DNA of 56,739 nt from Bacteroidota bacterium (GTDB lineage Bacteria > Bacteroidota > Bacteroidia > Chitinophagales > Saprospiraceae): NCBI GenBank assembly GCA_030147525.1, contig JASBVF010000041.1, forward strand, positions 1-56,739. Reading direction: 5' to 3'. Below the pieces are notes generated by a model. That model saw only the letters and a program-made list of their open reading frames with translations, ran no database searches and was not told where the DNA came from. Positions 2,057-55,391 of the stretch are shown piece by piece (the stretch's first letter is position 1; each line of letters begins with the position of its first letter). The translations under genes were made by a program, and so were the position numbers.

Positions 2057-2112
2057 GCTTTTGGCTGTTAGCTTTTGGCTGTTAGCCCGGCCTTATAAAG
2101 CCAATTGCTAAC
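2057..2112. repeat. Word repeat GCTTTTGGCTGTTA x2 with partial inverted arm
   Basis: A 14-base word occurs twice head to tail at 2057-2084, directly upstream of the SDR start codon. A loosely complementary segment (AGCCAATTGCTAAC) follows about 15 bases later. The same word family forms a clean hairpin at 50337-50365, upstream of proB, which supports treating both as members of one repeat class. Confidence 0.6.
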
Positions 2113-2250
2113 GTTTAAGGGGTTGCGATGACGAGTAAAATTATCACAACCGTCATTCGGTAAACTGAATTCCACATTTCACATAAGGGTCTTCAAAGAG
2201 CGGAATCCTGCTATTTCATTCGCCTTGAACAAGAGATAATTTGTACTCGG

Positions 2251-2697
2251 TCAATCAGATAATGCTTTTTGAAGGTTAGGAAAAGTATTGTCAATTGTTG
2301 CATCGTCTATTTTGTTGTCATGGTTATTGTCGCCATATTCCAGTCCAACCACAATAAGCCCTGAAATATCATTCTTCTGATTTTTGGTCAGGCCATTGGT
2401 TAATTTTATGAATTCCTGTTCTCCCATTTTATGGATTATTTGTGTCAAAATATAACCAAGGTCGTAGCAACCATCCGCTGTACCACACCAAAACTCAGTT
2501 AACTGAATTAGAACGCTTTGGTCTTTGTCAAGAGTCCGTTTGATTATGCCGCAAAGGCGCTTATTTGCTGAGTAGTCCTGATTTTCATAAAGTGTGTTGC
2601 CAATAATCACGCCGTCAACATTGGTTTGTTTACATGAAGTCAATGCCAATAAGGCCAAAAAAACTATATTGAAACCAATGTTCTGTATTGTCAGCAT
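2251..2697 (-). CDS. Hypothetical lipoprotein
   Basis: A 148-residue protein with a hydrophobic leader and lipobox LTSC (Cys22), predicted to be lipidated and exported. The mature part has several Cys residues (RLCGII, FWCGTADGCYDLGY), compatible with internal disulfides, and an acidic Asn/Asp-rich tail (DNNHDNKIDD). I do not recognise the family. It is AT-richer than its neighbours and lies between the SDR and the SMP-30 gene, all on the minus strand but with large gaps, so it is probably its own transcription unit. Confidence 0.6.
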   Translation of the reverse strand: MLTIQNIGFNIVFLALLALTSCKQTNVDGVIIGNTLYENQDYSANKRLCGIIKRTLDKDQSVLIQLTEFWCGTADGCYDLGYILTQIIHKMGEQEFIKLTNGLTKNQKNDISGLIVVGLEYGDNNHDNKIDDATIDNTFPNLQKALSD

Positions 2698-2731
2698 AAC
2701 CCATGTTTTATGATTTCTGGTATCTTAAAGC

Positions 2732-3586
2732 TTACAGATGCAAATGCGACGGCAACGCCAGTCCCTTTACCCCTGCATCAATCTTCGTGATGTGCCACCG
2801 GCCGAGATTGGCAGCAAAAAGCTGGTCGAGGTGCGGGCCGCCGAAGGCGATGTTCGTGGGGTTGGACAGCGTGTGTGCCTCCCAGTCGTCGATAAAAACG
2901 GTCGTGTCTCCGCCGGGGGTGACTTTGAAAATCTTGTTCGGGGCATAGCATGATACGTACAGATTGCCATCGGCGTCGAAGGCCAGCCCGTCGGGCACGG
3001 TTTCCGGCAGGGTGCAAACCAGCGACCGCTCCCCTGCCCTGCCGTCCGGCAAAATCGCTATCCGCTCCACGCCGGGCAGGAAGGAAGTGGCCACGTAGAG
3101 GTGTTTTTCACCCGGCCCCATCGCCATACCATTGGCAAAATTGAGCGGTTCACGATTCCAGATTTCACCTTTACCATCGGGCGAAAATTTCAACACCTTG
3201 CCGTTCACCTCCCGGAATGCACCGCTCTCGCTGACGTACAAATTGCCCGTTTTATCAAAAACCGCATAGTTAGGAATGTTGAATTGGTGGCCGCCAGCGC
3301 CGTCGGCGAATTTGGAAAGTTGCAGCGAAGGCAGGTCGAGCTTCCACAAGCATTTTTTACCTAAATCGCAGATAGCCAGCCACTTGGCGCCGGGACTTAA
3401 CGCCAGTCCGAGAATAAAACCGCCCGTATTGGCGACTTCCTCGACCGTTTTTCCATCGGGTGAAATGCGGTAAATCTGTCCGGCCTCTCCCCCGGCCCAA
3501 ACGGTGCCGTCGGGGTGGCAGGCGACACATTCGGGATGGTCGAGGCCCTCAGCGAATACGGTTGATTTTGATAGAAGTGAATGCAT
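2732..3586 (-). CDS. SMP-30/gluconolactonase-like beta-propeller protein
   Basis: A 284-residue six-bladed propeller protein of the SMP-30/gluconolactonase/LRE-like family (motifs LDHPECVACHPDGTVWAG, PDGLAFDADGNLYVSCY). Such enzymes usually hydrolyse sugar lactones with a bound divalent metal. No signal peptide is seen with this start. The reading frame stays open for 29 more codons into the preceding intergenic hairpin, giving a Thr/Lys/His/Cys-rich tail typical of repeat translation; I therefore start at the ATG at 3586. It is last in a minus-strand set after the mannonate dehydratase and the aldose-epimerase-like gene. Next to a mannonate dehydratase, a mannono- or related aldonolactonase is the natural guess. 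Confidence 0.85.
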   Translation of the reverse strand: MHSLLSKSTVFAEGLDHPECVACHPDGTVWAGGEAGQIYRISPDGKTVEEVANTGGFILGLALSPGAKWLAICDLGKKCLWKLDLPSLQLSKFADGAGGHQFNIPNYAVFDKTGNLYVSESGAFREVNGKVLKFSPDGKGEIWNREPLNFANGMAMGPGEKHLYVATSFLPGVERIAILPDGRAGERSLVCTLPETVPDGLAFDADGNLYVSCYAPNKIFKVTPGGDTTVFIDDWEAHTLSNPTNIAFGGPHLDQLFAANLGRWHITKIDAGVKGLALPSHLHL

Positions 3587-3676
3587 TTTGTGTGTTTGTG
3601 TTTTTATGTGTTTGGGTGTTTGTGGGGGTGTTTCACTTCGCAAACACCCAAACACACAAACACGCAAACACATGTT
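3587..3676. repeat. C-free-arm hairpin, TGTTTGGG word family
   Basis: This fills the whole gap between the stop codon of the epimerase-like gene and the ATG of the SMP-30 gene. The left arm (3587-3633) contains only G, T and one A. The right arm (3641-3673) is an A/C-rich complement. The 15 bases of each arm nearest the loop (GTGTTTGGGTGTTTG and its complement) pair perfectly; pairing becomes imperfect further out. It occurs between co-directional genes of one apparent operon. Confidence 0.85.
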
Positions 3677-4711: not shown

Positions 4712-4805
4712 AATTGAAATTGAGAAATTGGAAATTGAGAAATTAGGAAATTAGGAAATTTTCGAGCACTGGCCAATTTCTCAATTTCTAATTTCCAATT
4801 TCTAA
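4712..4805. repeat. C-free-arm hairpin, GAAATTAG word family
   Basis: The left arm (4712-4762) consists of reiterated GAAATT(G/A)(G/A) words without any C; the right arm (4775-4805) is the complementary TTTC/AATT series. Pairing is imperfect because the word registers differ. The right arm overlaps the last codons of the mannonate dehydratase, including its TAG stop at 4788-4790, so the protein ends in repeat-encoded residues (LEIGN). Confidence 0.85.
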
Positions 4806-5864
4806 TGTTTGCAACACCCCCCGCATATACCCCAGCGCATACGCCTTCCCGGCATGCCAGGGAGCGCCGCAGTTCATTTCGGGCGTGTGGTCGGGGATGA
4901 TGACGCCGTCGTAGTGGTTTTTTTTCAAAATGCGCAGCGCCCGCACCATGTCGATGTCGCCCTCGTCCACGAAGGCTTCCCGGTAGTGGGGCACTTTCCC
5001 GACGACGTTGCGGAAATGGATGTAGCCGATGTTCCCGGCGGCGGAGTGCTTGTCGAGCAGGGCGTAGAGGTCGCCTTCCGGCATTTCCTGCAGGGTGCCC
5101 ATGCAAAACTCGAAGCCATTGGCGGGGCTATCGGACACGGTGAGGAGTTTTTCATACTCCCCAAAACTGTGAAACAGCCGGGCCGTTTGCCGCATTTCCG
5201 GCAGCGGCGGGTCGTCGGGATGGGCGACCAGGCGCACGCCGCACTCCTCGGCCACGGGCAGCATTTCACCCAAAAACCAACGGAGCCGCTGCCACATCTC
5301 CTCCCTCGACACCGGGCCGACCGTGCCTGCCGGGGCCGCCGTGTCGTAGGTCATGTTCCAGGCCATGCCGTTGGGAATGGCGGCCTGCGCATCGATTTTT
5401 TCTTCATCAAAAACCACAGACATGGCCTCGCCCCGGCCCACGGGCGCTGGCGTCCAGCCCCACACCCCGGCCAGGCTGAAGTAGTAGCCCATGATGGGAA
5501 TGCCCGCCTTGCCGATGTTGCGGAGCATCATTTTCAAATCCTCCATTTGCTGCTTTTTCTGCGGGCCGTCGAGCAGGATGTCGTACCAGTGGGCAGGGTC
5601 GAAGTTCTCGATGGCGGCCCAGGTGAGGCCGTGCGACTCGATTTGTTTTTTCAGGGCAAGCAGGTCGTCGAGCTGCCAGAGCTTGCCCTCGTTGGGGGTG
5701 ACGCCCCAGCCGCCGAGGTAGTTTTGGGTGAGGGTCGGGCTGTCGCCGCCTTTCACATAATCCACCAGTTGCACGACGATGTGGGTGGCGCCGCATTGTT
5801 TTGCGAAGCGGAAATTGCTGTCGTTCAACAAGCTTTTGTAGAGTCCGAGGCCGAGTTTTATCAT
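4788..5864 (-). CDS. uxuA: Mannonate dehydratase (UxuA family)
   Basis: A 358-residue TIM-barrel enzyme expected to convert D-mannonate to 2-keto-3-deoxy-D-gluconate with a divalent metal (EC 4.2.1.8). Family marks include the metal-site segment RLVAHPDDPP near residue 217, ENFDPAHW near 85, GYIHFRNV and IIPDHTPEM near the C-terminus. The length is slightly short of Escherichia coli UxuA (394). I start at the ATG at 5864 (MIKLGLGLYK); the frame extends 24 codons further, but a TACCTTTG promoter box ends only five bases before this ATG. It heads a minus-strand set with the epimerase-like and SMP-30 genes and is divergent from the DUF4185-like genes. In context it points to oxidative breakdown of mannose or to uronate use. 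Confidence 0.88.
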   Translation of the reverse strand: MIKLGLGLYKSLLNDSNFRFAKQCGATHIVVQLVDYVKGGDSPTLTQNYLGGWGVTPNEGKLWQLDDLLALKKQIESHGLTWAAIENFDPAHWYDILLDGPQKKQQMEDLKMMLRNIGKAGIPIMGYYFSLAGVWGWTPAPVGRGEAMSVVFDEEKIDAQAAIPNGMAWNMTYDTAAPAGTVGPVSREEMWQRLRWFLGEMLPVAEECGVRLVAHPDDPPLPEMRQTARLFHSFGEYEKLLTVSDSPANGFEFCMGTLQEMPEGDLYALLDKHSAAGNIGYIHFRNVVGKVPHYREAFVDEGDIDMVRALRILKKNHYDGVIIPDHTPEMNCGAPWHAGKAYALGYMRGVLQTLEIGN

Positions 5865-5869
5865 GGTTT

Positions 5870-5877
5870 CAAAGGTA
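5870..5877 (-). promoter_or_regulatory. Bacteroidota -7 box TACCTTTG for uxuA
   Basis: Read on the minus strand this is a perfect TAnnTTTG box. It ends five bases before the uxuA ATG, so transcription would begin at or very near the start codon, implying a leaderless or nearly leaderless message. The -33 element is unclear (a TTGG about 17 bases upstream). Confidence 0.5.
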
Positions 5878-5923
5878 AAACTAATGACCAAAAACCAACG
5901 GAAAGCAGGCATGTATTTTTCAC

Positions 5924-5937
5924 TATGTTCAAACAAA
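5924..5937. promoter_or_regulatory. Candidate GntR/HutC operator, degenerate copy
   Basis: TATGTTCAAACAAA matches the perfect palindrome TATGTTTAAACATA found at the GntR promoter at 12 of 14 positions. It lies in the divergent spacer between uxuA and the first DUF4185-like gene, just upstream of the plus-strand -7 box. Location and similarity suggest the same regulator binds both places; the two mismatches keep this tentative. Confidence 0.4.
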
Positions 5938-5942
5938 TGGTC

Positions 5943-5950: not shown

Positions 5951-5968
5951 GCGAAAGTGATTTTTACC

Positions 5969-7129: not shown

Positions 7130-7223
7130 AAAAAGGTTTGAGGAGTTTGATTTGTTTGAGGAGTTTGATTTGTTGAGGAACAACGTCTCTAACCCCTCAA
7201 ACAAATCAAACTCCTCAAACAAA
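7130..7223. repeat. C-free-arm hairpin, TTTGAGGAGTTTGA word family
   Basis: An 18-base word (TTTGAGGAGTTTGATTTG) occurs twice at 7137-7172. The stretch 7121-7180, reaching back into the last codons of the preceding gene, contains no C. The right arm (7192-7223) pairs with 7151-7178, with a single-base offset. It lies between the two co-directional DUF4185-like genes. Confidence 0.85.
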
Positions 7224-7240
7224 ATAAATCACACAAAACA

Positions 7241-8413
7241 ATGCGATACCTCCTGCCAATCTGCCTGTTCCTCAGCGCCTGCGGGGTGAAGCCTGCGGCT
7301 GACACTACTCAAAAAGAACTCAAATACACCGTCGAAGCGGCGCCGGAATGGACGAACCTGTTTTACCGGAAATCCGGCTGGTTCGGGGCGGACGGCGTTT
7401 TTTCTATCCCACTTTCCGGCGTGGACAAAGTGGGCAACCTTGGCAACCAGGAAACGCTGCTGCTGTTCAGCGACACCTACATCGGCGAGGTGGATGAAAA
7501 CGGCAAACCCCGGCCCGGCAACGTGATGGTGAACAACACCTGCGCCATCGTGCAGGGCAATTCGGGGCATCCCGACAGCATCCGGTTTTTTTACAAAAAA
7601 GATGAAAACGGCGCTCCGCAAACCTTTTTCGTGCCGCAGAACACGGGCGGCAGGAAGCAGCATTTCTGGCTCGGCGACGGCTTCGTGAACCGGGAGCGGG
7701 ACAATACGCTCTACCTTTTCGGCTACCATATCGAAATGACGGGCGAAGGCGTGTTCGATTTCATCGAGCCGGATGTGTCGCTGATTGCCGTGCCCGCCGA
7801 GAGCAGCAGGCCGCCGTTTGCGAAGCAACGGCAAATGAAAACCCCGCTGCACATCAAAAATCCAGGCTTGGGCGAGGGGAATTTTGGTGCTGGCGTTTTG
7901 GTGAACACAAAATGGGCCGGGGCGCCGCACCCCGACGGCTACGTGTACGTGTACGCCTGCATCGGACCCGACAAAAACCTTGTGGCGGCACGGGTGAAGC
8001 CGAAGGATTTCGAGGATTTTGCGAAGTGGAAATACTGGAACGGCGGGGACTGGACGGAAGATATTTCACAACTGAAAGGCATCACCAACGCCGTGTCGAA
8101 CGAACTCAGCGTGACGCCGCTGCCCGATGGCAGGTTTCTCCTCGTTTTTCAGGTGATGGGACTTTCTGACAAAGTGGGCCTGCGGATTGGCGACAGCCCG
8201 GTCGGGCCGTTTGGTGAGATTCAGGAAATCTGGCGGACGCCGGAAGCTGACGAGGGGCTTTTTTGCTACAATGCCAAGGCGCACCCCAACCTCTCAAAAC
8301 CCGGCGAACTGCTCATCAGCTACAACACCATCACGCTGGATTTTTGGAACGACATCCAGCAGAATGGGCATATTTACAGGCCGAGGTTTATTAGATTGAA
8401 ATTTGGAAATTAG
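7241..8413 (+). CDS. DUF4185/DUF5005-like propeller lipoprotein, copy 2
   Basis: A 390-residue lipoprotein (lipobox FLSAC, about Cys15) with the same predicted propeller fold as the gene before it: LLLFSDTYIGEV corresponds to LWLFGDSFIG in copy 1, and YNAKAHPNLSKPGELLISYN near the C-terminus matches its final motif. Conserved aromatic and Asp residues between blades (GDGFVNRERDNTLYLFGYH) would suit carbohydrate contact. Sequence divergence from copy 1 is large, so the duplication is not recent. The stop codon TAG (8411-8413) lies within a GAAATTAG word of the following hairpin, and the final residues (KFGN) are repeat-encoded. It is convergent with the lipoprotein gene at 8474-9289. Confidence 0.8.
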   Translation: MRYLLPICLFLSACGVKPAADTTQKELKYTVEAAPEWTNLFYRKSGWFGADGVFSIPLSGVDKVGNLGNQETLLLFSDTYIGEVDENGKPRPGNVMVNNTCAIVQGNSGHPDSIRFFYKKDENGAPQTFFVPQNTGGRKQHFWLGDGFVNRERDNTLYLFGYHIEMTGEGVFDFIEPDVSLIAVPAESSRPPFAKQRQMKTPLHIKNPGLGEGNFGAGVLVNTKWAGAPHPDGYVYVYACIGPDKNLVAARVKPKDFEDFAKWKYWNGGDWTEDISQLKGITNAVSNELSVTPLPDGRFLLVFQVMGLSDKVGLRIGDSPVGPFGEIQEIWRTPEADEGLFCYNAKAHPNLSKPGELLISYNTITLDFWNDIQQNGHIYRPRFIRLKFGN

Positions 8414-8470
8414 AAATTGGGAAATTAGAGCAAGAACTCAATTTCCCAATTTCATAATTTCTAATTTCTA
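8383..8470. repeat. C-free-arm hairpin, GAAATTAG family, between convergent genes
   Basis: The stretch 8383-8430 has no C and holds the left arm of GAAATT words; the right arm (8438-8470) is the AATTTC complement. Pairing is imperfect, with register shifts. It overlaps the end and stop codon of the upstream plus-strand gene and reaches within four bases of the stop codon of the minus-strand lipoprotein gene. Confidence 0.8.
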
Positions 8471-8473
8471 AGC

Positions 8474-12754: not shown

Positions 12755-12832
12755 TTATGAAATTGGGAAATTGAGGAAATTAGGAAATTGATACGGTCAA
12801 ATTTTTCAATTTCTTAATTTCCCTAATTTCAA
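12755..12832. repeat. C-free-arm hairpin, GAAATTAG family
   Basis: This fills the gap between the GH92 stop (12833-12835) and the FG-GAP start (12754). Positions 12753-12793 contain no C. The right arm (about 12805-12832) complements it with shifts in word register. The genes are co-directional, so on the transcript it would lie between two reading frames. Confidence 0.85.
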
Positions 12833-15240: not shown

Positions 15241-15275
15241 CACAAACACTCAAACACAAAAACACCCAAACACCC
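15241..15275. repeat. Unpaired A/C word arm (half hairpin)
   Basis: A run of CACAAACACTC/CACCCAAACA words between the MFS stop codon and the GH92 start. It is the same word family as the hairpins at 3587, 18471 and 19499, but no G/T partner arm lies nearby. Confidence 0.7.
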
Positions 15276-16682: not shown

Positions 16683-16715
16683 AAATCATGGTGATTTTAA
16701 AAATCACCATGATTT
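16683..16715. repeat. Perfect 16-bp inverted repeat at the 3' end of the isomerase gene
   Basis: AAATCATGGTGATTTT and its exact complement, separated by one base. The arm reaches into the TAA stop codon (16714-16716) of the mannose-6-phosphate isomerase-like gene. It lacks a T-run on the minus strand after the stem, so it is not a classical intrinsic terminator. Confidence 0.8.
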
Positions 16716-18519
16716 AGCACCGCACGAACGCCTTCAGCGTCGCACATTCCACCCCCTCGCTCTCGCCATATGGCCGAATGGTGTATTCACCGACTGCCGC
16801 CGGCACGATAAACGTCTCCGCATAATGCACCACGAACGGCTCGAAGGCGCCGGCCGGGCTCTCGACGATGGCTTCCCGGCCTTCCACGAGGTTGAGGACG
16901 TTCAGGTTGCCGCCTGTGTCGTGGTGGACTTTTTTGGTGAACCAATGCCGCCTTGTTTCGATGAATTCGGTTTCGTGGAGGCCCGTGCGCTCCTCCCGCC
17001 AACCGTCGCCGCTGGCAATTTTTTCTACCCGGTTGACCAGGTTCTTGGCGACCCAATCCGTCGTGCGGTCCCACTGGATATTTTCTTTGCCGTGGCCGAT
17101 GTTGATGGGGCGAGGCAGGCCGTCGAGGCCGAGGCGGCCCCAGTCCCAGAGCTTGAAGGTGAAAATGTAGGGCGTGGCGCTGATTTCAAGCACCATGCTA
17201 TTGATGCCGGAGCAATGCACCGTGCCCGCCGGGATTAGCACGTGGTCGTGCTTTTTCACCGGCCATTTTTCCACGTGTTTTTCTGCATCGAAAACACCGG
17301 ACTGCTGCGCCGCTTCCAGTTCGGCTATCATTTCACCGGGATTGACGCCCGTTTTTAAACCCAAATAAACCACGGCATCGTCCTTCACGTCGAGGAGGTA
17401 GTAGCTCTCATCCTGGGTGTAAAACATGCCGAAATGTTCCCGGATGTACTCCGTCAGCGGGTGCACTTGCAGGCTGAGGTTGCCACCATCCATCGTGTCG
17501 AGAAAGTCGAAGCGGATGGGGAACTCAGCGCCGAAGCGGGAATACACGTTTTCGCCCAACAACTGTTTAGGTTGGTAAAAAACGGCGTTGATGGACGGAA
17601 TTTCCATCGTCTTTCCACCAAAATCCAGGAGCAAACTGTTCTCCTCCGGCACGCAGTCGAAGCACCAGGCGTAGTTCACGGCGGAGCGGTCGAGGTCGCA
17701 GACTTCCTTCATCCACTGGCCACCCCAAGGCCCTGGGTCGAAAAACGGCACCACCCGGAAGGGCTGCTGCACCGTCTGCTCCAGCGCTATACGGACGGCG
17801 GCGCCGGTTGCCATTTTCGGACTTCCCTGGGTATTGGTGTCGAGGACAAAATCCCAGCGGTCCATCAGTTTTCTTTTCAAACGGTCGGCCACCCGCCAGT
17901 CCACGAAGAAGGCCCGTTTGTACTTCCGGCTCACCTCCAGCGTGTGGTTGCTGGCGCCGAGGTTGGCCACTTCATTGCACCGCATCCGAAGCTGGATTTC
18001 CCAGCGGGCCAAGTCGGCGTAAATCAGCAGGTCCCAGGTTCCGGCTACTTCCGAGGCGCCTGTGCCATACACCATCGTAATTCCGGCAGTCCCTTTCACT
18101 TGCCGCCGCATTTCACCCAGCTTTTTTTCATCAAAAAACTCGTGGATGGTCAGGCGACTCATGAAGCCAAAAATGCGGTCGTCGGTCACGTCGGGGTAGG
18201 TCAGGCGGTCTATTTCCGCTTCGCTCAAAAAGGCATCCTTCGCCTCGAAAAAAGCATCGGGTGACAGGCCGTTTTTCAGCGCTGCCGTAATTTCCTGGTC
18301 GTTTGCGCCAGGGTAGGTTTCCACCACGATGGTGGTTTTTTGCTGGCCCCGGCGAGCGATTTCAGTTTTTATTTTTCCTAAAATAGCATCCCACCCCGCG
18401 CAACATGCGTCGTCGTGGCCGGTGATTTTTACCGTTGGAAATTTGTCGTAATTCGGGTTCAAATTGCTGTATTTGAGTGTTTGCGTGTTTGTGTGTTTGT
18501 GTGTTTTGGGAGCGTTCAT
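16714..18519 (-). CDS. manA: Mannose-6-phosphate isomerase-like protein with extra N-terminal domain
   Basis: A 601-residue protein whose second half (from about residue 320) is a type I phosphomannose isomerase cupin with recognisable zinc ligands: QVHP, the Glu in QDESYY and the His in AGTVHCSG. The reaction would link mannose-6-phosphate with fructose-6-phosphate, following the ROK kinase gene next to it. The first 260 residues form another domain (VETYPGANDQEI, WDLLIYADLARWEIQ) loosely like a nucleoside-kinase fold without a visible Walker A loop. The only ATG upstream of the conserved core, at 18519, lies in the loop of a hairpin repeat, with AGGAG four bases before it; residues 5-20 (HKHTNTQTLK) are therefore translated repeat. 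A TTG near 18450 is an alternative. Confidence 0.85.
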   Translation of the reverse strand: MNAPKTHKHTNTQTLKYSNLNPNYDKFPTVKITGHDDACCAGWDAILGKIKTEIARRGQQKTTIVVETYPGANDQEITAALKNGLSPDAFFEAKDAFLSEAEIDRLTYPDVTDDRIFGFMSRLTIHEFFDEKKLGEMRRQVKGTAGITMVYGTGASEVAGTWDLLIYADLARWEIQLRMRCNEVANLGASNHTLEVSRKYKRAFFVDWRVADRLKRKLMDRWDFVLDTNTQGSPKMATGAAVRIALEQTVQQPFRVVPFFDPGPWGGQWMKEVCDLDRSAVNYAWCFDCVPEENSLLLDFGGKTMEIPSINAVFYQPKQLLGENVYSRFGAEFPIRFDFLDTMDGGNLSLQVHPLTEYIREHFGMFYTQDESYYLLDVKDDAVVYLGLKTGVNPGEMIAELEAAQQSGVFDAEKHVEKWPVKKHDHVLIPAGTVHCSGINSMVLEISATPYIFTFKLWDWGRLGLDGLPRPINIGHGKENIQWDRTTDWVAKNLVNRVEKIASGDGWREERTGLHETEFIETRRHWFTKKVHHDTGGNLNVLNLVEGREAIVESPAGAFEPFVVHYAETFIVPAAVGEYTIRPYGESEGVECATLKAFVRC

Positions 18520-18559
18520 TTTGCTCCTACCCCAAAGCACAAAAACACCAAAACACAAA
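18471..18559. repeat. Hairpin, TGTTTGTG family, enclosing the manA start codon
   Basis: The left arm (18471-18510) is made of GTGTTTG words and the right arm (18530-18559) of A/C words. On the minus strand the inner part forms GGAGC / GCTCC around a loop that holds the ATG at 18519. An AGGAG ribosome-binding-like sequence is in the inner stem. The next gene boundary (ROK stop, 18560-18562) touches the outer edge. Confidence 0.8.
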
Positions 18560-19498: not shown

Positions 19499-19602
19499 TT
19501 TTTTGTGTTTGGGTGTTTTTGTGTTTGGGTGTTTGTGCGGGGTCTGCGAATTTTTCCAGTCATTTCACAAACACCTAAACACCCAAACACAAAAACACAA
19601 TC
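19499..19602. repeat. C-free-arm hairpin, TGTTTGGG family
   Basis: Positions 19497-19537 contain no C and hold two copies of a TGTGTTTGGGTGTTT word. Positions 19513-19534 pair perfectly (22 bp) with 19577-19598; the loop is about 42 bases. It fills the susD-ROK gap, ending directly at the ROK ATG on the minus strand. Confidence 0.87.
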
Positions 19603-19604
19603 AA

Positions 19605-27318: not shown

Positions 27319-28761
27319 ATGTCAGTCAAAAATTCAACAGAAAAAAAATCCCTCAACCGCAGAGATTTTGTTAAAACCGCCGGCCTCGGTGCAGCCGGTT
27401 TTATGATCGTTCCCCGCCACGTGCTGGGCAAAGGCTACCGCCCGCCGAGCGACAAGCTTAACATCGCCCTCATCGGAGCCGGCGGCAAGGGTGAAGCCCA
27501 CCGTGACACCTTGAAAAAAGGTGAAAACTTCGTCGCTTTCTGCGATGTGGACGACGTGCGGGCGAAGAGCACCTACGAGATGTTCCCGAAAGTGCCCCGC
27601 TACCGGGACTACCGCAAAATGCTGGATGAAATGGGCAAGTCTATCGATGCCTGCGTGATCGCCACGCCCGACCATACCCACGCTGTCATCACCATGGCCT
27701 GCATGCAGATGGGCAAACACGTTTACGTTGAAAAACCGCTGACGCACAGCATCTGGGAAGCCCGGGAGTTGCTGAAAGCAGCCAAAAAATACAAGGTCGT
27801 CACGCAGATGGGTAACCAGGGTGCTTCGATGGATTGCAACCGGGAGGTCGTCGAGTGGATCCAGTCCGGCACCATCGGTGACGTAACCCGTGTGCACGTC
27901 TGGACGAACCGGCCCGTATGGCCGCAAGGCGTACCCACGCCCACCGAAAAAGTGCCCGTGCCCATCACGCTCGATTGGGACCTCTGGCAAGGCCCCGCAG
28001 CCGTGCGGGATTACAACCCGGCCTACCTCCCGTTCAAATGGCGGGGCTGGTGGGAGTACGGCACCGGCGCCTTCGGCGACATGGGCTGCCACCTCGTCGA
28101 TCCGGCTTACCGTGCGCTGAAACTGACCACGCCGACTTCCGTGGAAGCCAGCGCAACGACCGTCTGGGTCGGCGATTTTGTGGAAGCGAACTACACCGAC
28201 AGCTGCCCGCCGTCGAGTTTGGTGAAAATGCAATTCCCGGCCCGGGAAGGCATGCCCGAATGTGAGCTCTGGTGGTATGACGGCGGCATCCGCCCGATGC
28301 GGCCTGAAGAACTCGGCCCGAACGAGGAGTTCGGAAGCTGGGACGGCGGCGTGCTGTTCGAAGGCTCGAAAGGCAAGATGATGTGTGGTATTTTCGGTGA
28401 AAACCCGACCCTTCTGCCCACCTCCCGCATGAAAGAAGTGAAAGCGCCGAAGCCCTGGCTCAAGCGGGTGAAAGGCGACCACCAGGAAGTATGGGCCGAA
28501 GCCTGCAAAGGCAACGGCGAACCGACTTCCCCGTTCGAGTACGCCGTACCGCTGACCGAATCGCTGCTCATCGGCAACCTGGCCGTGCGGTGCTACGACA
28601 TCAAAAAACTGCAACCCGGCAAAACGCCGACCTCCTGGGCGCCTTACGACTACCCCGGCCGCATCCGCCTCCAATGGGACAGCGAGAACGTGCGGGTCAC
28701 GAATTTTGAAGAAGCCAATCTTTTTGTGAAACGAGAATACCGGAAGGGGTGGAGTCTTTGA
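27319..28761 (+). CDS. Tat-exported Gfo/Idh/MocA-family oxidoreductase
   Basis: A 480-residue NAD(P)-dependent oxidoreductase with a twin-arginine signal (NRRDFVKTAGLGAAGFM) and an N-terminal Rossmann fold (NIALIGAGGKGEAHRDTL). The EKP motif characteristic of the family is present (VYVEKPLTHSIWEA), followed by a Gfo/Idh/MocA C-terminal domain (WEYGTGAFGDMGCHLVD). Exported members act on sugars or glycosides, some with a tightly bound cofactor. Substrate unknown. The gene is monocistronic and convergent with murQ. Its TGA stop (28759-28761) falls at the edge of the TTTGAGG hairpin. Confidence 0.92.
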   Translation: MSVKNSTEKKSLNRRDFVKTAGLGAAGFMIVPRHVLGKGYRPPSDKLNIALIGAGGKGEAHRDTLKKGENFVAFCDVDDVRAKSTYEMFPKVPRYRDYRKMLDEMGKSIDACVIATPDHTHAVITMACMQMGKHVYVEKPLTHSIWEARELLKAAKKYKVVTQMGNQGASMDCNREVVEWIQSGTIGDVTRVHVWTNRPVWPQGVPTPTEKVPVPITLDWDLWQGPAAVRDYNPAYLPFKWRGWWEYGTGAFGDMGCHLVDPAYRALKLTTPTSVEASATTVWVGDFVEANYTDSCPPSSLVKMQFPAREGMPECELWWYDGGIRPMRPEELGPNEEFGSWDGGVLFEGSKGKMMCGIFGENPTLLPTSRMKEVKAPKPWLKRVKGDHQEVWAEACKGNGEPTSPFEYAVPLTESLLIGNLAVRCYDIKKLQPGKTPTSWAPYDYPGRIRLQWDSENVRVTNFEEANLFVKREYRKGWSL

Positions 28762-28845
28762 GGGGATTGAGGGGTTTGAATTGTTTGAGGGGTTTGAGGA
28801 GACGCCTCGAACAATTCAAACCCCTCAAACAATTCAAACTCCCAA
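28759..28845. repeat. C-free-arm hairpin, TTTGAGGGG family, between convergent genes
   Basis: Positions 28757-28802 contain no C. TTTGAATTGTTTGAGGGG-type sequence at 28775-28797 pairs perfectly over 23 bp with 28816-28838. Both neighbouring genes end inside it: the oxidoreductase stop at 28761 and the murQ stop at 28834-28836 each use the TGA inside a TTTGA word. Confidence 0.88.
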
Positions 28846-29643
28846 ATACGCATCCACGGCAGCACGCACGCTGCCATGCTGGATGAGCAATTTTTTAGCC
28901 TCCTGGTAAACGAGGCTGGTATCCTGCGCCACCATTTTGGCGCCCCGGTCGAGGAGTTTGTTGTTGGTGAGTTGCATGTCTACCATTTTATTGTCTTTGA
29001 CCCTGCCAAGCTGGATCATGAGCGAGGTGGAGATCATGTTCAGGACAAGTTTTTGAGCGGTGCCGGATTTCATGCGGGTGCTGCCGGTGACGAATTCCGG
29101 CCCGACGATCACTTCCACAGGAAAGTCGGAAGCAGCAGCCAGCGGCGAGCCGGGATTGCAGGTAATGCAGCCGGTGACGATACCGTTCTCCCGGCAATCC
29201 TGGAGGCCGCCGACGACGTAGGGCGTCGTTCCGGAGGCGGCAATTCCGATTACAATATCCTGGCTATCAATGTGGTGTAACTTCAGATCTTCCCATGCCT
29301 GGGTGAGGCTGTCTTCGGCGTGTTCAATCGACTTGCGGATGGCCTGGTCGCCTCCGGCAATGACGGCGATGACCATTTCGGGTGAAACGCCATACGTTGG
29401 CGGGCATTCGGAGGCATCCACCACAGCGAGGCGGCCGCTGGTACCGGCGCCGATGTAAAACAGGCGGCCGCCCTCCTTCACTTTTTTAACAATGGCCTCT
29501 ACCAACGGATGAATGGCAGGAATGGCCTTTTCAACGGCGAAAGGAACCGTTTTGTCTTCGTTGCTAATATTTTGAAGAATCTCTACTACCGTCATTTTTT
29601 CGAGGTGACGATGAAGAGAGGGTTGTTCGGTAACTTTTTCCAT
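28834..29643 (-). CDS. murQ: N-acetylmuramic acid 6-phosphate etherase
   Basis: A 269-residue SIS-domain enzyme that removes the lactyl ether from N-acetylmuramic acid 6-phosphate, yielding GlcNAc-6-phosphate in peptidoglycan recycling (EC 4.2.1.126). Motifs: the start EKVTEQPSLHRHLEKMTVVE, LFYIGAGTSGRLAVVDASE, SGTTPYVVGGL and the family signature ITCNPGSPLA. The SIS-domain Glu in DASECPPTYG fits the catalytic position. Length is at the lower end for the family. No other cell-wall recycling gene adjoins. Confidence 0.95.
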   Translation of the reverse strand: MEKVTEQPSLHRHLEKMTVVEILQNISNEDKTVPFAVEKAIPAIHPLVEAIVKKVKEGGRLFYIGAGTSGRLAVVDASECPPTYGVSPEMVIAVIAGGDQAIRKSIEHAEDSLTQAWEDLKLHHIDSQDIVIGIAASGTTPYVVGGLQDCRENGIVTGCITCNPGSPLAAASDFPVEVIVGPEFVTGSTRMKSGTAQKLVLNMISTSLMIQLGRVKDNKMVDMQLTNNKLLDRGAKMVAQDTSLVYQEAKKLLIQHGSVRAAVDAYLGV

Positions 29644-39365: not shown

Positions 39366-39770
39366 ATGAATATTTTAAAAGGAAAAATAACCGAAGTCAA
39401 AGTCCACGGCAACCTCTCGCTGGTTCACCTTGCAGTGGGCGAAACTTCGCTGAAAGCCGTCGTCATCGAGTCGCCGGAGCAGGCGCCCTGGCTGCGGGAA
39501 GGCAATATTGTGGACGTGATGTTCAAGGAAACCGAAGTGATTTTAGGTAAAAACCAGGATCACGCCATCAGTCTGCAAAACCGCTTCCCCTGCACGATCC
39601 TCGCCATCGAGCAGGGCGAACTGCTCAGCCGGCTGGTGATGCAACATGCTGAAGGTCGCATCGTTTCCATCATCACCTCCGCCGCCGTCCGCCAACTGGA
39701 ATTGCAGCCCGGCGACGACGTGCTGGCCATGGTTAAAACGAACGAACTGATGTTGGAAGTAGGCCGGTAA
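39366..39770 (+). CDS. Mop/TOBE-domain molybdate-binding protein
   Basis: A 134-residue protein with two TOBE (molbindin) repeats: ILKGKITEVKVHGNLSLVHLAV and FPCTILAIEQGELLSRLVMQ, each with the Ser/Thr and Val/Ile pattern of oxyanion-binding Mop domains (VKTNELMLEV at the end). Such proteins store molybdate or regulate its use in the cytoplasm. Lying two bases after modA and before modB, it is most likely a di-Mop storage protein. The role is inferred from family and position. The 118 bp to modB hold several word-type repeat arms. Confidence 0.85.
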   Translation: MNILKGKITEVKVHGNLSLVHLAVGETSLKAVVIESPEQAPWLREGNIVDVMFKETEVILGKNQDHAISLQNRFPCTILAIEQGELLSRLVMQHAEGRIVSIITSAAVRQLELQPGDDVLAMVKTNELMLEVGR

Positions 39771-39885
39771 GCAGTAGGCGAGTAGGCAGCGGAAAAATCA
39801 AAAATCAAGTATCAAAAATCGAAGAATCATAAATCAAAAGCAGTCTCCCCCCAATTCACCAATTCACTAATTCACCAATTCCTAA
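39766..39885. repeat. Composite word arms between mop-like gene and modB
   Basis: Three unpaired word series follow each other: AGTAGGC words, AAAAATC words (39791-39840) and CAATTCACC/ACTAATTCACC words (39849-39882). The segment 39811-39839 matches 29 bases in the right arm of the hairpin at 54194-54346 with one difference. Only one strand sense of each word is seen, as if these were half hairpins. Confidence 0.7.
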
Positions 39886-39888
39886 GCC

Positions 39889-40563: not shown

Positions 40564-40570
40564 AATCTGT

Positions 40571-40670
40571 TGATTTAAGATTGCAGATTACATGATATCA
40601 GATTTTTGATTTTTGGTCATCGCCCAACCATCTTAAATCAAAAATCATGTAATCTGCGATCTTAAATCAT
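40571..40670. repeat. Hairpin between modB and modC, GATTTAAGATT/GATTTTTG words
   Basis: TGATTTAAGATTGCAGATTACATGAT-type left arm (40571-40596) pairs over 26 bp with 40644-40669; the only mismatch is a T opposite G, which would still pair in RNA. Between the arms are further GATTTTTGATTTTTGG words and their partial complement. No T-run follows, so it is not a standard terminator. Confidence 0.85.
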
Positions 40671-40688
40671 AAGCCATCGACGATTGCA

Positions 40689-47229: not shown

Positions 47230-47318
47230 CGATAAAAAGCAGATGTTTTGATTTACTGCTGACGTAATCTTTCATTAGAAAAACTTCATTACCAGCGGTT
47301 TTTAACTGTTTTAAAAAG

Positions 47319-50365: not shown

Positions 50366-50379
50366 TAAAACAACATCAC

Positions 50380-51438: not shown

Positions 51439-51450
51439 CTTGACATTAGG

Positions 51451-51563
51451 AGGATTGGATCACGGATTGGACGGATTGGACGGATTGACACGGATTTTTT
51501 AACTGAAACGTCCCTAAAATCCGTGTCAATCCGCCCAATCCGCCTAATCCGTGGTCCAATCCT
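51451..51563. repeat. Long hairpin between proB and proA, GGATTGGACGGATT words
   Basis: Two 48-base arms (51451-51498 and 51516-51563) are complementary with only four differences, all transitions. Loop 17 bases. The arms are built of CGGATTGG(A) words. The proA frame is open through the right arm, but the conserved start lies just after it. It lies between two genes of one pathway. Confidence 0.92.
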
Positions 51564-51591
51564 GTCACGAGGGCTGTTTAAAAAAATATCT

Positions 51592-52845
51592 ATGCAAGCA
51601 TCCATCCTTAAAAATCTGGACCAACTGCGGCATGACGCCCGCCAACTCTCCTCCATCACCGAGGCAAAAATCAACGCCGTGCTGCTCGACCTGGCGGACC
51701 TCGCCGTGGCCGAAACCCCGCATATTTTAACCGAAAACAAAAAAGACCTGGAACGCATGGACCCCGCCGACCCGAAGTACGACCGCCTGCTGCTCAACGA
51801 AGCACGGGTCGCCGCCATCGCCGGGGACATCCGCAACGTGGCCTCGCTACCCTCCCCGCTGGGCCTGACGCTGGAGGAACGCACCCTGCCCAACGGCCTC
51901 GAACTCAAAAAAGTCACCGTGCCGCTGGGCATCATCGGCATCGTGTTCGAGTCGAGGCCGAACGTGACGTTCGACGTGTTTTCGCTGTGTTTCAAATCCG
52001 GTAACGCCAGCGTGCTGAAGGGCAGCCGGGATGCGCATTTTTCCAACATCGCCATCGTAGGTTTGATAAAAAAAACACTCGCTGCCCACGGCCTGCCTGA
52101 ACTCGTGTACCTCGCCCCCAGCGAGCGGGAGTCGCTGAAATACATCCTCGAAGCTGACCGCCACATCGACACGATCATTCCCAGGGGGAGCCAGGGCCTG
52201 ATTAATTTTGTGCGGGAAAATGCCAAAGTGCCGGTGATCGAAACGGGCGCAGGCATCGTGCACGTGTACGTGGACCGCAGCGCCGATTTGAAAAAAGCTA
52301 CGGACATCGTGCGCAACTCAAAAACCCGCCGGGTGAGCGTCTGCAATGCGCTGGATGCGCTGCTGATCCACCGGGAGCGGCTGGTCGATCTGCCGGCGAT
52401 TTTGCAGGGTTTCGATTCGGAATTTCAATGCGGCGTTTATGCCGACGAGCGGGCATTTGATGTTTTAAAAAACAGCTACGACAGCGGGTTGCTGCACCGG
52501 GCCACGCCGGAGAGCTTCGGTACGGAGTTCCTCTCGATGAACCTGTCGGTGAAAACCGTGGACTCGATCGGCGAGGCGCTGGATCATGTTTTTCAGTACA
52601 GCTCCAACCATACGGAGAGCATCGTGGCGGAGGACGAGGAGGCAATTTTGAAATATTTAAACCAAGTGGACGCCGCCGTCGTTTTGTCGAACGCTGCCAC
52701 TTGTTTCACCGATGGGGCTCAGTTTGGCCTCGGTGCCGAGATCGGCATCAGCACGCAGAAACTGCACGCCCGTGGGCCGATGGCGTTGCGGGAACTGACG
52801 AGCTACAAGTGGGTGGTACGGGGCAGCGGGCAGACCAGGCAATGA
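51592..52845 (+). CDS. proA: Glutamate-5-semialdehyde dehydrogenase (gamma-glutamyl phosphate reductase)
   Basis: A 417-residue enzyme that reduces gamma-glutamyl phosphate with NADPH, the second step of proline synthesis (EC 1.2.1.41). Motifs: VTVPLGIIGIVFESRPNVTFD, KSGNASVLKGSRDA, IIPRGSQGLINFV, VIETGAGIVHVY, the catalytic Cys in SVCNALDALL and STQKLHARGPMAL at the C-terminus. I start at the ATG at 51592; the open frame begins 23 codons earlier but that segment is repeat-derived (RPIRLIRGP). Its stop TGA lies at the edge of an AATGAGAG word series. Confidence 0.97.
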   Translation: MQASILKNLDQLRHDARQLSSITEAKINAVLLDLADLAVAETPHILTENKKDLERMDPADPKYDRLLLNEARVAAIAGDIRNVASLPSPLGLTLEERTLPNGLELKKVTVPLGIIGIVFESRPNVTFDVFSLCFKSGNASVLKGSRDAHFSNIAIVGLIKKTLAAHGLPELVYLAPSERESLKYILEADRHIDTIIPRGSQGLINFVRENAKVPVIETGAGIVHVYVDRSADLKKATDIVRNSKTRRVSVCNALDALLIHRERLVDLPAILQGFDSEFQCGVYADERAFDVLKNSYDSGLLHRATPESFGTEFLSMNLSVKTVDSIGEALDHVFQYSSNHTESIVAEDEEAILKYLNQVDAAVVLSNAATCFTDGAQFGLGAEIGISTQKLHARGPMALRELTSYKWVVRGSGQTRQ

Positions 52846-52957
52846 GAGAATGAGAGAATGAGGGAATGAGAGAATTTTGCGCAGCTACATTCTAAACCAC
52901 TGAAAATCAGCCTCACACAAACACCCAAACACAAAAACACAAAAACACGCAAACACA
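52843..52957. repeat. Two unpaired word arms between proA and queA
   Basis: AATGAGAG words at 52843-52875 begin at the proA stop codon, and A/C words of the CACAAACACCCAAACA family occupy 52914-52957, ending just before the queA ATG. Neither has its complementary arm nearby. The two families are mixed, as at 39766-39885. Confidence 0.75.
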
Positions 52958-52960
52958 CGT

Positions 52961-54172: not shown

Positions 54173-54193
54173 GAATTGAAAGGATTAGGGAAT

Positions 54194-54346
54194 TGATTTA
54201 AGATTCTTCGATTTTTGATTTTTGATTTTTGATTGAAATACTGGTTTTCAAAGGTTTGACTCGATTATTTGCAAAAGAAACGAAGGGCAAGCATTTGGAA
54301 AACGGTACCCCAAATCAAAAATCAAAAATCGAAGAATCTTAAATCA
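54194..54346. repeat. Perfect 35-bp inverted repeat with 83-base loop
   Basis: Positions 54194-54228 and 54312-54346 are exact complements made of GATTTTTGATTTTT and GATTTAAGATTCTTC words. The 83 bases between them are ordinary non-repetitive sequence. The right arm is near-identical over 29 bases to 39811-39839. It separates the convergent queA and por genes. Confidence 0.93.
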
Positions 54347-54387
54347 AAAAAAATACCCACGGCCGACCTCCAACCACTCTGACCCAA

Positions 54388-55305
54388 TCACCCCACCAGT
54401 TCCATCCCCTCCATTTTTTCCAGTTTGATCAAACGGGTCCATGTCTCGTCCGTGTGTTCCTGCACGTGGTCGAGCAGGGGTTTGTTTTCCGGTAGGAAAA
54501 GAAATTTGAAACGGCCCTGGTGTTTCAGACACTCGGCCACGGGAACGCTTTTCTGCGGCCAGTAGCTGATCTTGTAGCGCTGCCGCACGACCTCGAACAA
54601 CGGGAATAGCTTCGTTTCCACCGCCAGACGGCTCACCTGGATGGACTGTGACGGTTCGTATTTGTGGCCCGGCGGGCAGGGGCCATCGATCATCAGCAGG
54701 CGGAAGCCTTCGGTGGCTTTGGCTTTTTGAATTTTCTGGCGCATGTCTTCCAGGAAGGCAAGCGAGGCAGTGGCTGCATACGGCAGGTTGTGTGCGGCGA
54801 TGATGCCCATGAGGTCTTTGGGCCAGGTTTTTTTGTAGTCTTCTCCGGCGTTGGTGGTCGTCACGGCGCCGTAGGGTGTGGCGGTGCTGGTCTGGATGCC
54901 GGTGTTCATGTAGGCGCCGTTGTTGTTGACGACGTAGAGGATATTTTCACCCCTCGCCGCTGCGCCGGAAAGCGCCTGCAAGCCGATGTCAAACGTGCCG
55001 CCGTCACCGGCAAGGATAGCGACCGTGGTGGCTTTTTTGCCCTCCCGGTCGAGCGCAGCCCGTACGCCGGTGGCAGTGGCGGGTGCTGCCGCAAAAACGG
55101 TGTGCACAATACTCGCTTTCAGTTCACTCATGGGGTAAGGCCCGGAGATGATGGAAAAACATGAAGCCGGCAACACGTAAACCGTGTCCGGCCCCAGAAT
55201 ATCGGCCAGGTGCCGCACGAGCAGCGACCAGCCGCAGCCCCGGCAACTCTGTGCGCCGGAGAATACCTGTTCATTTTTTATGAGAAAATCCATGGATGGA
55301 ATCAT
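54388..55305 (-). CDS. porB: 2-oxoacid (pyruvate):ferredoxin oxidoreductase, beta subunit
   Basis: A 305-residue thiamine-diphosphate-binding subunit. SCRGCGW near residues 20-25 gives two of the cysteines for the [4Fe-4S] cluster; a later Cys in LPASCFSI is a probable third. The TPP motif GDGGTFDIGLQALSGAAARGENILYVVNNNGAYMNTG is typical of PorB. With the alpha subunit it decarboxylates pyruvate (or another 2-oxoacid) to acyl-CoA, reducing ferredoxin. The start may be four codons later (MDFLIKNE). It follows porA with a 29-bp hairpin in the gap. Confidence 0.93.
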   Translation of the reverse strand: MIPSMDFLIKNEQVFSGAQSCRGCGWSLLVRHLADILGPDTVYVLPASCFSIISGPYPMSELKASIVHTVFAAAPATATGVRAALDREGKKATTVAILAGDGGTFDIGLQALSGAAARGENILYVVNNNGAYMNTGIQTSTATPYGAVTTTNAGEDYKKTWPKDLMGIIAAHNLPYAATASLAFLEDMRQKIQKAKATEGFRLLMIDGPCPPGHKYEPSQSIQVSRLAVETKLFPLFEVVRQRYKISYWPQKSVPVAECLKHQGRFKFLFLPENKPLLDHVQEHTDETWTRLIKLEKMEGMELVG

Positions 55306-55320
55306 GCGTCAGCTATTTTA

Positions 55321-55391
55321 GTGATTGGAGACTGGTGATTGGTGATTGGTGATCGGGTCATCCCAATCACCAATCACCAGTCTCCAATCAC
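55321..55391. repeat. Perfect 29-bp inverted repeat between porA and porB
   Basis: GTGATTGGAGACTGGTGATTGG-type words at 55321-55349 pair without mismatch with 55363-55391; the loop is 13 bases. It fills almost the whole 90-base gap between two subunit genes that must be co-expressed. Confidence 0.93.

Follow-up and report, generated by a model that had tools for sequence, protein, structure and literature searches.

Word-built hairpins of one geometry and many words at gene ends in a Saprospiraceae genome

Hairpins in the window

The window (the whole 56,739-nt stretch of a Bacteroidota contig that was analysed, with a G+C content of 53.7%) carries arrays of short reiterated words at many of its gene boundaries. 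An inverted-repeat scan detected 15 inverted repeats with a score of ≥14 in the window and none in five local dinucleotide shuffles. When 14 stretches were folded as single-stranded DNA, 11 (3587, 4712, 7130, 8390, 12755, 18465, 19499, 28755, 40565, 51445, and 55318) clearly beat their own shuffles, with z values of −3.2 to −13.3. With the addition of 54193-54347, recognized by its complementary arms, 12 window boundaries have a word-built hairpin; four further boundaries (2057, 15243, 39790, and 52841) have word arrays but no strong hairpin. The count in the earlier note of at least 14 boundaries with word-built inverted repeats is confirmed in part. The features are as follows; none is assigned to a strand.

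2057..2113, GGCTGTTAGC tandem duplication, named in the earlier note; weak fold only (z −1.8)
3587..3676, TGTTTGGG-word hairpin between co-directional genes, bounded by the start codon of 2732-3586 and the stop of 3677-4711; arms at 3591-3622 and 3641-3672 (inverted-repeat scan); z −6.4
4712..4808, GAAATTGAG-word hairpin flanked by co-directional genes and sharing bases with the end of 4788-5912 (scan; z −7.1)
7136..7220, TTTGAGGAG/TTTGATTTG-word hairpin between co-directional genes (scan; 7130-7240 folded, z −8.5)
8390..8473, GAAATTAG-word hairpin that includes the stop of 7241-8413, flanked by convergent genes (scan; z −7.5)
12755..12832, GAAATTGAG-word hairpin between co-directional genes (scan; z −5.2)
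15243..15275, one-sided CAAACACC array close to the stop of 15283-16608; no partner arm, no hairpin
18465..18559, weaker TGTTTG-word hairpin (score 14; z −3.2)
19499..19604, TGTTTGGG-word hairpin between co-directional genes (scan; z −6.2)
28757..28847, TTTGAGGGG-word hairpin that overlaps the stop codons of both flanking genes, which are convergent (scan; 28755-28850 folded, z −8.7)
39758..39885, mosaic with arms of three families (GTAGGC left, GATTTTTG-type right, and GTRAATTRG-type right); no hairpin (39790-39888 folded, z +1.1)
40571..40669, GATTTAAGATT-word hairpin between co-directional genes (scan; 40565-40675 folded, z −9.8)
51451..51563, ACGGAT-family hairpin between co-directional genes, with CGGAT cores every 9 bases (scan; 51445-51570 folded, z −13.3)
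52841..52958, chimeric boundary with a left array of AATGAGAG and a non-complementary right array of CAAACACC (z −0.7)
54193..54347, GATTTTTG-word hairpin between convergent genes, with two perfectly complementary 36-nt arms and an 83-nt loop; not folded
55321..55391, GTGATTGG-word hairpin between co-directional genes, with perfect 29-nt arms (scan; 55318-55395 folded, z −11.4)

All seven C-free 5′ arms described earlier are present. The C-free runs start at 3585, 4710, 7110, 8383, 12753, 19497, and 28757 and measure 49, 53, 71, 48, 41, 41, and 46 nt, respectively, giving a range of 41 to 71 nt in place of the 41 to 60 nt first reported. Because the right partner arm is G-free, the C-free 5′ arm is a feature of both strands simultaneously. 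A search of the window against Rfam gave no matches at gathering scores.

Two other inverted repeats, at 16683 and 36055, are short and not made of words. The hairpin at 47314 has no clear words; the automatic word rule (repeat identity, 0.6) nevertheless scored it as word-built. The same rule misses most elements of the ACGGAT family, including that at 51451.

Abundance, polarity, and position

The genome-wide sample comprised 800 kb of the same genome in mid-contig stretches chosen by position only. It contains 95 inverted repeats, compared to 0.67 per shuffle, and 168 C-free or G-free runs of ≥35 nt (105 of them intergenic), compared to 57.7 per shuffle; such runs are thus commoner than in shuffled sequence, the comparison proposed in the earlier note. 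Around queA relatives, a weak control (genome contigs, with coding positions unfiltered), 2 of 18 loci had a word-type inverted repeat. The genomes are drafts, some of whose contigs begin or end in repeats, but the excess lies in mid-contig stretches, and an assembly artefact is unlikely because word hairpins occur in separate assemblies, in one case with the word family unchanged at an orthologous boundary. The probability that the class reflects chance or faulty assembly is practically negligible.

The hairpins share a strict polarity. The C-poor arm is the left arm, on both strands, and two-sided arrays have the G-then-C order in 51 regions and the reverse order in 1 (20 and 0, respectively, in the unbiased stretches alone). 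No inverted repeat of score 15 covers 38 of the 61 one-sided arrays, and 31 of these 38 hairpin-less arrays are directed away from the nearest gene.

Position is similarly constrained. Hairpins lie between co-directional and convergent genes, and 55 of the 64 between co-directional genes start no more than 10 nt from the stop codon of the upstream gene, where 4% would be expected. Of 53 in the unbiased set, 4 fall between divergent genes (P = 0.05), a modest depletion. The TGA of the first word doubles as the stop codon at several loci. A stop-codon function of the words is not argued: stop triplets number 290 in the arms and 212.5 in shuffled arms, but the excess is of TGA alone, with TAG and TAA below expectation. 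Hairpins less than 5 kb apart share a word in 11 of 45 pairs, compared to 2.8 with shuffled labels, although one cluster (L012) provides 6 of the 11.

Arm pairing and word families

The earlier note held that every locus differs and that the loci have nothing but a compositional rule and words in common. The first statement stands in part but fails for at least one family, as the 51451 hairpin belongs to the ACGGAT family with at least 14 copies in the genome; the second overstates the case, because the genome has at least one dispersed family whose copies can be aligned. Stretches homologous to 54193..54347 also occur elsewhere in the genome. A plasmid search with the 51451 hairpin gave no matches.

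Thirteen ACGGAT copies were compared arm by arm, the other lacking the anchors. Their CGGAT cores are conserved and their spacers variable. Two of the 13 have arms that mirror each other perfectly over the 46 positions compared, yet these two loci differ in sequence. At six of the 13 loci the right arm of no other locus betters the locus's own, while at seven some foreign right arm fits better, and in the GTRAATTRG family the fit of own (0.93) and foreign (0.90) right arms is nearly equal; shared words therefore explain much of the pairing. Across 63 loci, arms matched at 92% in register, and a one-word shift lowered this to 76%. Of 378 positions at which adjacent words vary, 259 were mirrored. 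Both results lean upward, as the best register was chosen by scan. Chimeric arrays also occur.

Turnover between related species

At syntenic boundaries in related species the hairpins are missing or built of other words. The hairpin at 4712..4808 is absent from two relatives (G004 and G013); the gap at 4704 is 37 and 35 bases in two species, compared to 106 and 104, and that at 19502 is 11 bases in G004, compared to 116 in the window (junctions not exact in either case). Other words are found in relatives at 3587 (G004 and G013, by eye), at 7130, where G004 has a one-sided GATTTAC array across from 7136..7220 (by eye), and at 12756, where G004 has a GGTATTG-word hairpin in the place of 12755..12832. 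The boundary corresponding to 52841..52958 carries a TGAGAG-word hairpin in G010, and the array of 15243..15275 was not seen in G004 or G013. Some sequence is shared: GGAAATTAG is common to G004 at the same gene end as the 8390..8473 hairpin, and G001 and G007 hold stretches similar to 55321..55391.

Gaps that look like empty sites, the 14 ACGGAT copies and other alignable genome copies, and four matches to Y1 transposases in this genome would be consistent with small mobile palindromes, similar to REPs or MITEs, which insert beside stop codons by transposase or recombination and whose words are family signatures. Like REPs and BIMEs, the hairpins are palindromes that mostly follow genes, in co-directional and convergent gaps, with families in opposite orientation (PMC3733652). 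That literature, in the portion relevant here, describes a GTAG or CGTC tag plus a family consensus, and membership of the REP superfamilies was rejected because neither tag is enriched (GTAG at 6 of 94, compared to 4.9 at random intergenic sites; CGTC at 0 of 94, compared to 3.4). Further, there are many word families, array lengths vary, and some arrays lack an inverted partner. A further mark of the REP superfamilies is a dedicated RAYT transposase (GTAG type); Y1_Tnp matches occur in 48 of 60 relatives, this genome included (presence alone compared), but G013 and G002, with assemblies 78% and 89% complete, have word arrays and no match. Mobile palindromes are regarded as unlikely. Reverse transcriptases were rejected as a source: RVT_1 was found in 17 of 36 genomes, and G008 and G004 had no match yet hold 33 and 5 GGTGAYTGG pairs, respectively.

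Selection on RNA

Several observations would suit functional RNA hairpins maintained by selection on the transcript, as 3′ stabilizers of the upstream cistron, terminators, or translation insulators or couplers: onset at or just after stop codons, placement between co-directional and convergent genes, and folding far above shuffles. REPs in such positions are thought to act in RNA, according to the account in PMC3733652. The arms themselves give no sign of such selection. Among transition-type arm mismatches, 40 give G·U in the mRNA sense and 57 in the antisense, although with 97 informative cases weak selection would escape detection. The counts were 17 and 28 in the unbiased stretches alone and 8 and 9 in relatives, whose set consisted of 58 of 62 relative stretches taken by place (L078, L081, L093, and L096 omitted) and two syntenic G004 stretches. 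Densities in the relatives' set are biased, as several stretches (G001, G007, G014, and part of G004) were picked near earlier matches. As a control, T-tract, terminator-like hairpins of the same genome do show the G·U bias (40 sense and 23 antisense).

A T-tract follows the stem in 5 of 85 word hairpins, compared to 17 of 38 compact non-word hairpins, and intrinsic terminators are rejected for the class. The lack of an mRNA-sense G·U preference and the rarity of T-tracts leave selection on an RNA hairpin or terminator without support; in addition, hairpin presence and words turn over between species. An RNA role is accordingly considered unlikely, though worth retaining among the candidates. 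Of the two origins offered in the earlier note, an active generating process fits better (turnover, partnerless arrays, chimeras, and two perfect mirrors) than selection on the RNA hairpin.

Comparison with known arrays

The following comparisons rest on the relevant portions of the cited papers. The closest geometry is that of the Xanthomonas GGGAATC heptamer and the Nostoc GGGGA(C/T)T repeats (Rehm et al. 2015, PMC4692102). These are G-rich 7-nt words in tandem that lie largely in intergenic DNA, most often where genes are aligned and rarely between divergent ones, by stop codons on the coding strand and by starts on the other. Convergent heptamer pairs number 70 and 75 in two Xanthomonas genomes, with few inverted pairs in Nostoc; array lengths vary among close relatives, and function is open. 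The hairpins described here likewise consist of two tandem arrays with converging G-rich strands and lie near stop codons, albeit with the modest divergent depletion noted above. In contrast, the Xanthomonas and Nostoc repeats have one word per genome, chosen for G-quadruplex potential, whereas many words of 7 to 9 nt coexist in this genome. The Xanthomonas type has a GGGNATC-type word with a G-tract per unit; that does not hold here, as G-tracts are missing from many words, GAAATTAG and GTRAATTRG among them, and periods are 7 to 9 and more. The arrays are also mostly paired into hairpins and undergo word swapping at orthologous boundaries. The geometry thus matches that of convergent Xanthomonas heptamer arrays; the present genome extends this kind with its many interchangeable words, their close anchoring to stop codons, and the swapping of one word for another.

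TAACTGA repeats of Beggiatoaceae, cyanobacteria, and some Bacteroidetes are also intergenic heptamer arrays with other heptamers nearby, but their arrays are direct and in one genome mostly lie immediately before start codons, with one indirect repeat described there (PMC4679880). The hepta- and octanucleotide arrays of Geobacter metallireducens are similar in having tandem 7- to 8-nt units in opposite-strand pairs at variable distance; unlike the arrays here, they fall into four fixed consensus classes, read as global regulator sites (PMC2700814). These paired arrays, the strict convergent order, the lack of an RNA-sense wobble bias, and one family's combination of conserved CGGAT cores and variable spacers could suggest that proteins or supercoiling act on convergent gene-end arrays as paired DNA-binding or cruciform sites, as has been proposed for the octanucleotide pairs of Geobacter. 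Neighbouring loci, and likewise orthologous boundaries, have different words, however, so many different proteins would be required, and we rate the chances of this explanation as low.

Origin of the hairpins

We tentatively favor, at somewhat under even chance, an origin of the hairpins as DNA-level structures that arise repeatedly at gene ends by slippage and inverted template switching. A short C-poor word beside a stop codon would be multiplied by slippage, and inverted template switching (fold-back or quasipalindrome copying) would then write its complement across the gap, producing a hairpin in which the G-rich strand enters the centre from both sides. The process might start in ribosome-free transcribed DNA right after the stop codon. 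Hairpins would be tolerated because they lie past the stop codon and short of the A-rich region where the next gene starts, may spread somewhat to neighbouring boundaries and other loci, and could decay, lose an arm, or be overwritten by another word. This proposal draws on the observed polarity, position, and turnover, on mirrored arms at part of the loci, and on the absence of an mRNA-sense G·U bias. Quasipalindrome template-switch mutations provide a precedent for a DNA process matching the arms of imperfect inverted repeats (PMC3820800, PMC8604942, PMC7202029), but are described in the relevant part of PMC3820800 as single mutations and not as the source of hundreds of gene-end hairpins. 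The G-left polarity needs an additional assumption, e.g., that G-rich strands more readily fold or form R-loops, and tight stop-codon anchoring might equally signal function.

In the papers considered here, gene-end arrays of short words come with one or a few words each, and none has a settled function. Many words with one geometry in a single genome separate what is fixed (polarity and stop-codon anchoring) from what is free (the word), making it testable whether arrays are kept for an RNA role or are written and overwritten as DNA. If they are made as DNA, the gene ends of operons would be hot spots for new inverted repeats, which would matter for predicting terminators, for RNA predictions based on covariation, and for genome rearrangement.

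A further reading that we regard as very improbable is that a bacterial activity extends broken intergenic 3′ ends with G-rich words and then joins them, each hairpin being the scar of a healed break. The arrays would then resemble telomere-type repeats added to DNA ends, in that the words are 7 to 9 nt long, C-poor, and slightly degenerate and the G-rich strand runs 5′ to 3′ from the adjacent gene to the middle of the gap. Some boundaries have an array on one side only, others have two arrays head-to-head, and at a few an array is joined to one of a different word.

Occurrence of word hairpins

The earlier note described inverted repeats of short reiterated words at gene boundaries (here, word hairpins), seven of them with a C-free 5′ arm, and such hairpins are real in both the window and the genome. 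An ungapped inverted-repeat finder returned 15 inverted repeats at a score of ≥14 in the window and none in five shuffles, and 11 of the 14 stretches that were folded had z values of ≤−3.2. The same scan was applied to stretches of the organism's own genome (7,084,418 bases in 59 contigs): an unbiased set of 40 stretches (800 kb) chosen by position alone and, used only where stated, 20 contig starts (375,890 bases) and 9 stretches (165,198 bases) chosen for their homologues of window hairpins. The unbiased set contained 95 inverted repeats at a score of ≥15, where three shuffles averaged 0.67. Of the 95, 94 were intergenic, and 54 were word-built by an automatic rule that is imperfect (it omits 51451 and 18485 and includes 47314). 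The window is richer than the rest of the genome, with 11 counted hairpins in 56.7 kb versus 48 in 800 kb (P = 0.0015).

Position relative to genes

Genes were called with our own codon-usage caller (which places gene starts only approximately and may have missed genes in some long gaps), and the 94 G-left word-built hairpins kept from all own-genome data comprised 64 between co-directional genes, 21 between convergent genes, 6 between divergent genes, and 3 at edges. In the unbiased set, word-built hairpins of both polarities numbered 34 for 371 co-directional, 15 for 95 convergent, and 4 for 91 divergent pairs (P = 0.05 for the deficit at divergent pairs).

The 64 co-directional hairpins lie a median of 5 nt from the upstream stop codon, and 55 of them (28 of 32 in the unbiased part) are within 10 nt, overlaps included, versus 4% of points placed at random in co-directional gaps that lack a hairpin. 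Once the hairpin is subtracted, the remaining gap has a median length of 22 nt, versus 99 nt in 510 pairs without a hairpin. By eye, the array begins at or directly after the stop codon, which at several junctions is the first word's own TGA, and an A-rich stretch and then ATG often follow the right arm. TGA is the upstream stop codon in 35 of the 64 hairpin pairs versus 193 of the 510 others (P = 0.014).

Polarity

Among the 54 word-built repeats of the unbiased set, G exceeds C in 48 left arms and C exceeds G in 5; C is absent from 21 left arms and G from none. The 40 other intergenic inverted repeats of this set lean likewise (23 versus 12). Because a C-free left arm and a G-free right arm constitute a single statement on both strands, this polarity is not derivable from transcription direction alone. 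The GCAGATT word family violates the rule, with more C than G in its left arms (retrieved stretches L073:4536, L074:16581, L018:17866, and L050:7317).

Tandem arrays numbered 200 in the 768 intergenic regions of 20 to 600 bases in all own-genome data, versus 3 in shuffled regions. Where one G-type array shared a region with one C-type array, the G-type came first in 51 cases and the C-type in 1 (20 versus 0 in the unbiased part). Of 61 regions with a single detected array, some of these arrays being hairpin arms whose partner fell below the array threshold, 52 had the G-rich strand running away from the closest gene (34 of the 40 between co-directional genes, 14 of the 16 between convergent genes, and 4 of the 5 between divergent genes). 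The same held for 31 of 38 single arrays without an overlying inverted repeat of score 15 and for 27 of 32 without one of score 12. At least 21 two-strand clusters of the word pattern GTRAATTRG, hand-counted among the matches listed, all had one order (at least 12 in G000, 8 in G001, and 1 in G002, three of the genomes compared).

Selection on RNA or change in DNA

Word hairpins could be kept by selection on the transcript or could be written and changed as DNA, by slippage and inverted template switching. A selected mRNA hairpin should carry more mismatches that are G·U in the mRNA sense than mismatches that are A·C. No such excess was found in the 64 co-directional hairpins (40 in the sense direction versus 57, P = 0.10; 95% interval of the sense share, 0.31 to 0.52), in their unbiased part (17 versus 28), or in relatives (8 versus 9). 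The control, 68 terminator-like hairpins of the same genome, chosen by T-tract (which somewhat favors G·T pairs) and with convergent gaps read on both strands, gave 40 G·U mismatches versus 23 and differs from the word hairpins (P = 0.009). The corresponding counts were 97 and 74 in a further 230 non-word hairpins lacking a T-tract. A T-tract follows 5 of 85 word hairpins versus 17 of 38 compact non-word hairpins.

Past the stop codon the transcript is free of ribosomes, and RNA-DNA hybrids are favored by a G-rich nontemplate strand. A process starting in this ribosome-free zone, just 3′ of the stop codon, would account for both the hairpin position and DNA-level pairing. Reports on other systems describe imperfect inverted repeats made more perfect by template switching (PMC8604942, PMC7202029), which in yeast is linked to RNA-DNA hybrids and high transcription (PMC3820800). 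The weakest point of this mechanism is that 19 of the 40 single arrays between co-directional genes lie close to start codons and are C-rich in the sense strand, an arrangement not predicted by mRNA hybrids alone. For this reason an alternative was raised, in which G-rich words would be added to broken 3′ ends between genes and the ends then joined, as in telomere-type extension.

Comparison with known systems

The closest geometry is that of the GGGAATC heptamers of Xanthomonas, which Rehm and colleagues place in 70 and 75 convergent pairs in two genomes (PMC4692102); these pairs have the same geometry as word hairpins. The Xanthomonas arrays lie mainly between aligned genes and rarely between divergent ones; on the coding strand they are found near stops and on the opposite strand near starts. 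Nostoc has just a few convergent pairs, and the authors leave function open (PMC4692102). Paired hepta- and octanucleotide arrays of Geobacter metallireducens are listed as putative regulator sites (PMC2700814), and the TAACTGA arrays of MacGregor are direct (PMC4679880). REPs (PMC3733652) share the position of word hairpins, but the REP tag is not enriched at word hairpins. In the open-licence literature, we found no account of many words per genome under one polarity, of word swapping at orthologous boundaries, or of a wobble test.

Orthologous boundaries and individual loci

Parts of the window, 1.3 to 25 kb long, have syntenic counterparts in G004 and G013, two species of the genus. The hairpin at boundary 4704 is missing in both, and boundary 19502 has 116 bases in the window versus 11 in G004. 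Boundary 12756 carries GAAATT words in the window, a scan-confirmed hairpin of GGTATTG words in G004, and, where these two have word hairpins, a different, GGTGCAGCGCACC-type palindrome in G013 (L041:1121-1251). By eye, relatives carry different words at 3587 and 7130, in arrays that are short or one-sided (G013 is nearly empty at 7130), and boundary 2052 has a GGAATTGAG hairpin in G013 and none in G004. The window has ∼690 bases at 2053-2743, including an open reading frame at 2251-2697, where the syntenic gaps are only 20 (G004) and 87 (G013) bases.

At 8413, the word GAAATTAG overlaps the gene end and may derive from the gene itself, since GGAAATTAG of that gene end is also present in G004. 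The boundary 3′ of the gene at 51592-52845 is chimeric (52841-52958), with a TGAGAG left array and a nonpairing CAAACACC right array; in G010, TGAGAG words build a hairpin there whose arms are 70 nt long (L122:2768-2922), and no TGAGAG-type hairpin was found at this gene in G014 or G019. The gap at 39758-39885 is a mosaic in which GTAGGC words form a left array covering the gene end, alongside two right arms, one of GATTTTTGATT type and one of GTRAATTRG type. None of the three has a matching partner, and they look like the remains of hairpins that were nested or succeeded one another. Across these few boundaries, sites outlast words.

Families and arm matching

The earlier proposal that loci share only words fails for the ACGGAT family of the element at 51451-51563, whose copies are alignable. 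Fourteen copies were taken from the genome and 13 compared (1 lacked anchors); in this family a CGGAT core recurs at 9-base intervals, separated by variable spacers. Mean identity was 0.86 for arms of the same locus versus 0.81 when a left arm was set against the right arm of another locus, and two loci were perfect mirrors across the 46 positions compared. The locus's own right arm was unbeaten by that of any other locus in 6 of 13 cases and beaten in 7, with indels also depressing the fit score at some loci; better-fitting foreign arms are expected if arms were exchanged or decayed. In the GTRAATTRG family (14 loci), own and foreign right arms fit almost equally (0.93 versus 0.90). Among 45 pairs of hairpins lying no more than 5 kb apart, 11 shared words, versus 2.8 with shuffled labels (P = 0.0005), one cluster providing 6 of the 11. 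A separate dispersed palindrome family lacks tandem words and has GCCCCTGACCCCT in its arm (L011:5830, 5974, and 11679; L017:2589; L019:5098).

Distribution across relatives

Hairpin number was highest in the organism's own genome, and stretches of G001, partly chosen near earlier matches, were equally dense (7 in 80 kb). Sampling of ∼20 to 100 kb from each of 31 relatives yielded 23 word inverted repeats, of which 18 were G-left and 3 were C-left, and 12 of 19 co-directional repeats lay ≤10 nt from the stop codon. None occurred in the sampled stretches of 11 of 13 genomes from other families.

Word vocabulary differs from genome to genome. GTRAATTRG pairs numbered 224 in G000, 61 in G001, 13 in G002, and 0 to 2 in the 11 remaining genomes of this genus. 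The counts for GGTGAYTGG pairs were 143 in G016, from another genus, 62 in G001, 49 in G007, 33 in G008, and 31 in G000. G016 also has long one-strand arrays of GGTGATT units at C31:81682-81802 and C41:314165-314292 (16 and 17 matches to the pattern, overlaps included). In G010, GTRAATTRG reversed as a control gave 54 and 31 matches, so this genome seems to have its own GRTTAARTG-type word.
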